Positions 19,053 through 37,231 of a stretch of 41,408 bases of DNA are shown one piece after another. The translations under genes were made by a program, and so were the position numbers. How positions within the stretch are numbered: the first letter of the stretch is position 1; each line of letters begins with the position of its first letter. Origin of the DNA: Chloroflexota bacterium (GTDB lineage Bacteria > Chloroflexota > UBA11872 > UBA12225); contig CANFGH010000017.1 in assembly GCA_947446285.1 (NCBI GenBank), positions 1 through 41,408 of the forward strand, given 5' to 3'. The notes below the pieces were generated by a model. It did no database searches and was not told the origin of the DNA. It was given only the letters and a program-made list of their open reading frames with translations.

Positions 19053-19172
19053 GCCTAGGCAATGGCTTATTTTCCCAGACCGTCTCCAGTCTAGTATCGT
19101 CAGCGCTGAAGTGTTTCACGACCGTGTTCGGGATGGGAACGGGTGGGTCCACTACGCTCGGATCACCAAGAC
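19053..19172 (-). rRNA. rrf: 5S ribosomal RNA, isolated single gene
   Basis: The minus strand carries the conserved 5S core: AGCGTAGTGGACCCACC, CGTTCCCATCCCGAACACGG and GAAACACTTCAGCGC. The ends GTCTTGGTGAT and ATTGCCTAGGC pair as helix I (10 of 11 positions, with G-U pairs), giving a 120-nt molecule. No 16S, 23S or tRNA is adjacent; clpS lies upstream on the same strand and the YbaK-like gene is downstream, convergent. The gene has its own promoter and terminator, so it is a separate transcription unit. Confidence 0.93.
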
Positions 19173-36562: not shown

Positions 36563-36623
36563 AACGTGTGACCCATAGTTACGATCACGAAAGTGCTGTA
36601 AGGGCGCACATGCACCAGAAACA

Positions 36624-36657
36624 CCGACGCGGTGGTCCTGGGGGACCACCGCGTCGG
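36624..36657 (-). terminator. Closing hairpin of the c-di-AMP riboswitch unit
   Basis: A perfect 15-bp stem (CCGACGCGGTGGTCC / GGACCACCGCGTCGG, 36624-36638 and 36643-36657) with a 4-base loop follows the stop of the small zinc-finger gene on the minus strand. The T-content after it is weak (TGTTTCT), so efficiency is uncertain. Confidence 0.75.
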
Positions 36658-36686
36658 AGCGAGTGAGGAGAAGGAAGGAGAGAGAA

Positions 36687-36923
36687 TCAATCCATGCGGA
36701 GTACGGGGTGCTGGTCGGCAATGGTGTGTGCCGCCGCACTCCCGGGGTTGGTGAAATCGGTCTCGCAAACTGGGCAGTGGTACTGGGATCCGTGCCACCA
36801 GACTGGTTGCTGACGCAGGACCGCCAACTTCACGTCGGTAACCGACATCAGGCCAAGCGCACGGGCACGCTGGGACATACGAGGGACAATGTCCGCGTCG
36901 ACGGTGCGACCGATGCTTTGCAT
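36687..36923 (-). CDS. 78-aa C2H2-type zinc-finger protein under a c-di-AMP riboswitch
   Basis: The ATG at 36923 has AGGAG six bases upstream and gives 78 residues; a TTG-started frame to 36989 exists but starts inside the terminator. Near the end is CPVCETDFTNPGSAAAHTI followed by ADQH: Cys50-x2-Cys53-x12-His66-x5-His72, with Phe57 at the hydrophobic position of TFIIIA-type fingers (the usual leucine is alanine). The first 45 residues have two likely helical parts (MSQRARALGL and VTDVKLAVLRQQ). No family is recognised. Its leader is a ydaO-class riboswitch, so expression should fall or rise with c-di-AMP. A nucleic-acid-binding or metal-binding role is an inference. Confidence 0.7.
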   Translation of the reverse strand: MQSIGRTVDADIVPRMSQRARALGLMSVTDVKLAVLRQQPVWWHGSQYHCPVCETDFTNPGSAAAHTIADQHPVLRMD

Positions 36924-36983
36924 CCGGCACTCCTGACCAGTTCGGCCATGCTCGGCAATAGCCGCGCAGTTCAGGGACCGGAC

Positions 36984-37019
36984 AAACAAAAGCGGACCGA
37001 AGGAATAGCCTCCGGCCCG
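36984..37019 (-). terminator. Riboswitch expression-platform terminator
   Basis: On the minus strand CGGGCCGGA (37019-37011) pairs with TTCGGTCCG (37001-36993), nine pairs including two G-U, with a nine-base loop, and is followed at once by CTTTTGTTTG. It lies between the aptamer and the start codon of the zinc-finger gene. Confidence 0.8.
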
Positions 37020-37196
37020 GGCCGCTACTCCTCTTTCAGGTGCCGACGGGGTTAGCTGACGGGTTCGGGCTGAAAGAGCTGCCCTACCTTCCGTGTATCA
37101 GGAAGGATTCACCCCAGTTGTGGGTCCCCCGTTCCCAGGAAATGATCCCAAGATTAGGCCGTTATTCGGTTTCTCCGCTACCGGATTTCGCCGGTG
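37020..37196 (-). ncRNA. ydaO/yuaA-type c-di-AMP riboswitch
   Basis: Read on the minus strand, the leader holds the class core in order: ACGGGGGACCCACAACTGGG, GGGGTGAATCC, a helix closing with AAGGTAGGGCAGC, then CAGCCCGAACCCGTCAGCTA and the CCCCGTCGGCACCTGAAAGAGG end. This set of conserved blocks (GGGGACCC, GGGGTGAATC, CCCGAACCCGTCAGCTAA) is that of the c-di-AMP riboswitch (RF00379-type). A strong promoter precedes it and an intrinsic terminator plus a small gene follow it. c-di-AMP riboswitches of this class usually act as off-switches. The exact aptamer 5' boundary is approximate. Confidence 0.93.
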
Positions 37197-37202
37197 ACCA
37201 AC

Positions 37203-37231
37203 AGCATATAAGGGTCGGTGCCGGATGTCAA
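37203..37231 (-). promoter_or_regulatory. Promoter of the riboswitch unit
   Basis: Minus-strand TTGACA (37231-37226) and TATGCT (37208-37203) have a 17-base spacer and put the start near 37196, just before the riboswitch. Confidence 0.8.

Follow-up and report, generated by a model that had tools for sequence, protein, structure and literature searches.

What does a c-di-AMP riboswitch control when the open reading frame (ORF) behind it encodes a tiny C2H2 zinc-finger protein? Most targets reported for this class serve ion and osmolyte balance or the cell wall. The locus described here lies on the minus strand of a Chloroflexota contig; the window is the whole stretch of 41,408 nt that was analyzed, and all coordinates count from its first letter. 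In a literature search restricted to open-licence papers, in which c-di-AMP riboswitches were combined with zinc fingers, small proteins or Chloroflexi, neither titles nor abstracts mentioned such a target. The riboswitch itself belongs to a known class; its target family and an RNA element 3′ of the gene appear to be new. Judged from sequence comparison, promoter, aptamer, terminator, C2H2 gene, a CU-rich element and a final hairpin form one conserved unit in a Chloroflexota family.

The Riboswitch Leader

The leader encompasses three features:

37203-37231, minus strand: promoter TTGACA-17-TATGCT (motif scan; similar -35/-10 pairs in relatives)
37026-37170, minus strand: c-di-AMP riboswitch aptamer, RF00379 (99.1 bits, E 1.8e-22, model positions 1-134)
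36983-37019, minus strand: intrinsic terminator of the riboswitch (expression platform), consisting of hairpin 37019-36993 and a T-rich tail (sequence, relatives)

A sequence-only reading of the locus had already proposed this promoter, a ydaO-type aptamer and an intrinsic terminator on the minus strand, and all three were recovered. The promoter (37231-37203) agrees at 10 of 12 positions (mean 0.3 in shuffles), and the genomes G001, G003, G006, G008 and G155 also have comparable -35/-10 pairs ahead of the aptamer. The RF00379 match is full-length and far above the gathering score of 38; it is the sole riboswitch match in the window (cmscan) and single-copy in the genome. Between 36200 and 37700, no further Rfam match was obtained, even at E≤1. 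The terminator hairpin comprises 11 bp and is followed by the tail CTTTTGTTTG. T-tailed hairpins are located 3′ of the aptamer at seven of eight loci; the leader of the exception, G008, lacks such a terminator and may therefore act on translation.

Sequence at and just before the 5′ strand of the P1 helix is predicted to be able to pair with the terminator arms. This antiterminator pairing is a possibility derived from prediction only, and it fits the OFF mechanism known for the riboswitch class (PMC9960051). In the presence of c-di-AMP, P1 would form, the terminator would fold and the C2H2 gene would be switched off; in its absence, the RNA at and just before the P1 5′ strand would pair with the terminator and transcription would go on. 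An OFF switch acting by termination is considered very probable. A diadenylate cyclase (DAC) domain was found in all ten genomes tested. The response of the leader to c-di-AMP is an inference.

Whether the pair of aptamer and gene is conserved was examined by scanning complete genomes of relatives for RF00379. The aptamer is present in seven family genomes (G000, G001, G003, G005, G006, G007 and G008), each of which has one aptamer directly before a C2H2 homolog. In G155, a member of a second Chloroflexota family, the homolog is closely preceded by an aptamer of 85 bits. The riboswitch-gene pair is thus kept in all seven aptamer-bearing genomes of the family and in one genome of another family. 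Neither aptamer nor C2H2 gene was detected in the family genomes G002 and G004 (2.2-2.3 Mb); these are 81-85% complete, so that incompleteness is a possible cause of the missing pair. The homolog of G099 has no aptamer nearby.

The C2H2 Protein

The coding part of the unit is defined by two features:

36930-36934, minus strand: Shine-Dalgarno sequence AGGAG, 6 nt before the ATG (sequence)
36687-36923, minus strand: gene of the 78-aa single-finger C2H2 protein, stop codon included (homologs, dN/dS, model, PDB-sequence and Pfam matches)

The start codon (ATG at 36923) with its ribosome-binding site and the motif C50-x2-C53-x12-H66-x5-H72 with F57 correspond to what had been read from the DNA before. 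Compared with two genus mates, the ORF shows dN values of 0.026 and 0.098 and dS values of 0.15 and 0.71, i.e. a dN/dS of about 0.14 to 0.17, indicative of purifying selection. Homologs were found in 11 of 151 genomes at E≤0.01 (own genome included; the weakest three are doubtful), and strong profile matches in nine of 400 genomes of the phylum. Because of dN/dS and homologs, the ORF is regarded as a gene, and a chance ORF was rejected. The four Cys/His residues are invariant among 12 homologs, and F57 is retained in 90% or more. Further invariant positions in the 12 sequences are A20, W42, H49, A63 and a C-terminal HPVLRxD motif; outside the genus, the C2H2 proteins of the family are only about 39-59% identical.

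The AlphaFold2 model (mean pLDDT 85, exceeding 90 by blocks across residues 21-78) displays helices at the N-terminus and, across residues 48-70, a beta-beta-alpha unit, with the predicted finger elements E48-50, E55-57 and H60-70 at high pLDDT; this architecture rests on AlphaFold2 alone. The best Foldseek matches of the model are C2H2 fingers, none of them significant. A profile search against PDB sequences likewise led to C2H2 fingers, including the RNA-binding proteins ZFa and ZNF346. Among Pfam families, zf-met scores best with the window protein at 18.1 bits, below the gathering score of 21.2, and the G099 homolog passes this cut-off with 26.5 bits. No Ros/MucR model of Pfam or NCBIfam matched the window protein at E≤1, and the NCBIfam search with it returned nothing. 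The protein is not basic. Taken as a single zf-met-like finger, it is probably a nucleic-acid binder; zinc binding, nucleic-acid binding and the role of the protein are inferred.

An origin from plasmids or phages was rejected after searches of three kinds: the window protein had no match among plasmids, phage records contained none for the B-type paralogue (here the paralogue, not the window protein, served as query), and no relative was confirmed in IMG/VR. Those relatives that have a name are MAGs of uncultured Chloroflexota, UBA2235 among them; they stem from a contig scan with two peptide patterns, which does not exclude distant relatives in other phyla.

Additional C2H2 copies without a riboswitch of their own are found in the family. 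A paralogous subfamily (..GWSKGTEYHCPFC..SGARKHMKTQ.HPVLRWDWY) is found in G005, G006 and G007, where it lies close to the riboswitch unit and adjoins altronate-dehydratase-like genes. Its copies are located as follows:

L075, 1230-1457, minus strand: paralogous C2H2 copy
L074, 1338-1571, minus strand: paralogous C2H2 copy
L073, 1210-1434, minus strand: paralogous C2H2 copy

G006 carries a second C2H2 copy (G006:C170; L054, 8255-10378), which is joined in frame to the N-terminus of a 707-aa Mur-ligase/cyanophycin-synthetase-like protein.

These copies bear on the question whether the finger binds nucleic acids at all. It could instead serve as a protein-protein adaptor that controls an enzyme or an envelope protein, a reading suggested by the fusion to an enzyme, the altronate-dehydratase-like neighbors of the paralogues, the invariant motifs beyond the finger core (W42, HPVLRxD) and the lack of a basic character. 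No partner has been identified, however, the fused and paralogous copies lack the riboswitch and may differ in role, and the best sequence matches are nucleic-acid-binding fingers. The adaptor function is hence judged unlikely, and binding of nucleic acids is the preferred reading.

The Target of the Riboswitch

Downstream of the C2H2 gene, the unit is closed by a second, strong hairpin:

36615-36657, minus strand: terminator hairpin (36657-36624) with a short T-rich tail, 3′ end of the unit (sequence, covariation)

Compensatory changes affect seven of its 14 pairs with 99% of cells paired, which is not equaled by any shuffle; the T tail is weak in the window genus. The gene that follows is variable: the window genus and G008 have a UDG-family gene in this place and G005 has a short-chain dehydrogenase gene, each succeeded by a gene for a YfhO-like membrane protein. 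In G155, the gene after the C2H2 homolog is convergent, and the C2H2 gene is therefore the only possible target there.

The true c-di-AMP target might nevertheless be the downstream set, composed of the UDG-family and YfhO-like genes and further membrane-protein and glycosyltransferase-like genes. Same-strand genes do follow in the family, the YfhO-like gene is kept nearby, and cell-wall genes belong to the known targets (PMC9960051). The idea is given little credence, since the C2H2 transcript ends at a conserved, covarying terminator, the identity of the next gene changes, and its orientation in G155 is convergent. For the same reasons, an operon-first reading with the C2H2 gene as a passenger before YfhO-like genes was lowered in rank. 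The C2H2 gene is the constant target, and there is little doubt that it is controlled by the riboswitch. The claim of a riboswitch governing a zinc-finger-like gene is thereby supported, and none of the observations named as refuting it was made: the RF00379 hit exists, the homologs keep their four Cys/His residues, and most relatives have the leader.

The CU-Rich 3′ Element

Between stop codon and final hairpin lies a feature that the sequence-only reading overlooked, although it had covered these positions:

36659-36685, minus strand: invariant CU-rich element TCTCTCTCCTTCCTTCTCCTCACTCGC, candidate sRNA seed/anti-Shine-Dalgarno (seven of seven family genomes)

All 27 nt are identical in the seven family genomes; the next-longest stretch common to the seven units measures 11 nt and belongs to the aptamer. 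At up to three mismatches, the element has one copy in its genome, by which a dispersed repeat was rejected, and is absent from 393 other genomes of the phylum. A covariance model built from element and hairpin gave strong full-length matches exclusively in the seven family genomes. The homologs of G155 and G099 lack the element, and protein and element are therefore separable. Near the 3′ end of the ORF, 18 of 21 synonymous codons are identical between G000 and G003, compared with 17 of 34 (Fisher p 0.0097); this is a weak hint, as raised conservation was not seen against G008 or G007.

The element contains several runs complementary to Shine-Dalgarno sequences and is similar to the 16S tail of its own genome, CACCTCCTTTCT. 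From these properties, an sRNA-like anti-Shine-Dalgarno element is inferred, for which no transcript data exist. An antisense RNA directed against one extended target was rejected: only one other 18-nt site with up to two mismatches was encountered in the seven genomes. Rough pairing energies with the genes of the window are uninformative on their own. Concerning rRNA, the window encodes an isolated 5S rRNA gene (19054-19170, minus strand) and shows no other rRNA match; the 3′ end of the genome's 16S rRNA is on another contig.

That the element is a functional RNA is considered probable, whereas its action in trans as an sRNA is an evenly balanced matter. Alternatively, it might work in cis only, e.g. 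in stability, processing or autoregulation of its own mRNA, for instance as a binding site of the C2H2 protein. Such a restriction would suit its strict linkage to the C2H2 gene, to which it is always located 3′, the absence of an extended trans target and its ability to base-pair with purine-rich parts of the leader in the same mRNA. This pairing is not independent evidence because the paired sequence is part of the conserved aptamer, and a simple stability element would not usually be invariant along 27 nt and contain several runs complementary to Shine-Dalgarno sequences. Confinement to cis remains conceivable at somewhat less than even chances, beside the trans-acting sRNA.

Comparison with Known Systems and Other Aptamers

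With the ydaO/yuaA riboswitches, the leader shares a complete aptamer containing the conserved blocks and an intrinsic terminator behind it, an arrangement known from transcriptional OFF switches of Bacillus; it differs in what it controls, namely a tiny C2H2 protein accompanied by an invariant 3′ RNA instead of genes for K+/osmolyte transport or the cell wall. The protein resembles eukaryotic-type zf-met/JAZ (dsRNA-binding) fingers in the spacing C-x2-C-x12-H-x5-H, the core Phe, the beta-beta-alpha model and the zf-met match of G099. Unlike these, it is bacterial, has one finger, N-terminal helices of its own and the invariant HPVLRxD C-terminus, and its zinc and RNA binding are inferred. Ros/MucR regulators are bacterial C2H2-type finger proteins as well; they differ by a Cys-His spacing of 9 residues and by a larger domain for zinc binding.

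The closest mechanistic analogue found is CcaF1 of Rhodobacter, a 71-aa RNA-binding DUF1127 protein co-transcribed with the CcsR sRNAs in a unit that ends in a Rho-independent terminator (PMC10253847). In both units (CcaF1/CcsR is denoted CIN1), a small protein gene is followed by a pyrimidine-rich, sRNA-like element and by a Rho-independent terminator (PMC10253847). They differ in protein family, in the number of elements (one compared with four sRNAs) and in regulation, which is by riboswitch here and by RpoH there. As DUF1127 did not match the window protein at E≤1, the locus is not a member of CcaF1/CcsR; by analogy, it may at most work like it, with c-di-AMP as input.

Aptamers of the class also precede other genes in Chloroflexota. 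In a sister family of the same order (G009 and G010; L029 and L030), the aptamer stands directly before a sigma-70 family sigma factor gene:

L029, minus strand: sigma-70 family gene just after the aptamer at 1501-1651; L030 is arranged alike

The aptamers at L008, L034, L059, L060 and L021 stand before genes for trehalose-phosphate-synthase-like (GT20) proteins, mechanosensitive-channel/DedA-like proteins and ABC-CBS transporters, which agrees with osmotic control. In G042, from another Chloroflexota family (L023, 1501-1983), the aptamer lies before a different small Cys-rich protein of about 85 aa with weak resemblance to the TRASH domain (E 0.025); small metal-binding-like proteins may therefore be recurrent outputs of c-di-AMP riboswitches.

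Proposed Mechanism and Significance

The overall explanation, a ydaO-class c-di-AMP OFF switch on a monocistronic C2H2 mRNA with an sRNA-like 3′ end, is moderately favored, in the absence of experiments and transcript data. At low c-di-AMP levels, the C2H2 protein and the 3′ RNA would be released together. The CU-rich stretch of the RNA could then cover purine-rich Shine-Dalgarno sequences, and the zf-met-like finger might act as a small nucleic-acid-binding partner, for RNA more likely than for DNA, in a manner analogous to CcaF1 with the CcsR sRNAs. Cooperation of the protein with the 3′ element, or its action on RNA, is only tentatively suggested. A locus with dual output, in which a single-finger RNA-binding protein and a 3′ anti-Shine-Dalgarno sRNA link c-di-AMP to the post-transcriptional control of other mRNAs, is a speculative and rather unlikely extension.

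In importance, the conserved RNA element at the 3′ end may equal the protein. With a tiny C2H2 target and its invariant RNA tail, the riboswitch would open the way to a second layer of regulation. The locus provides a single-finger family of the zf-met/JAZ type from bacteria in a conserved context, together with a candidate sRNA family that can be tested and an insight into a c-di-AMP regulon in Chloroflexota.
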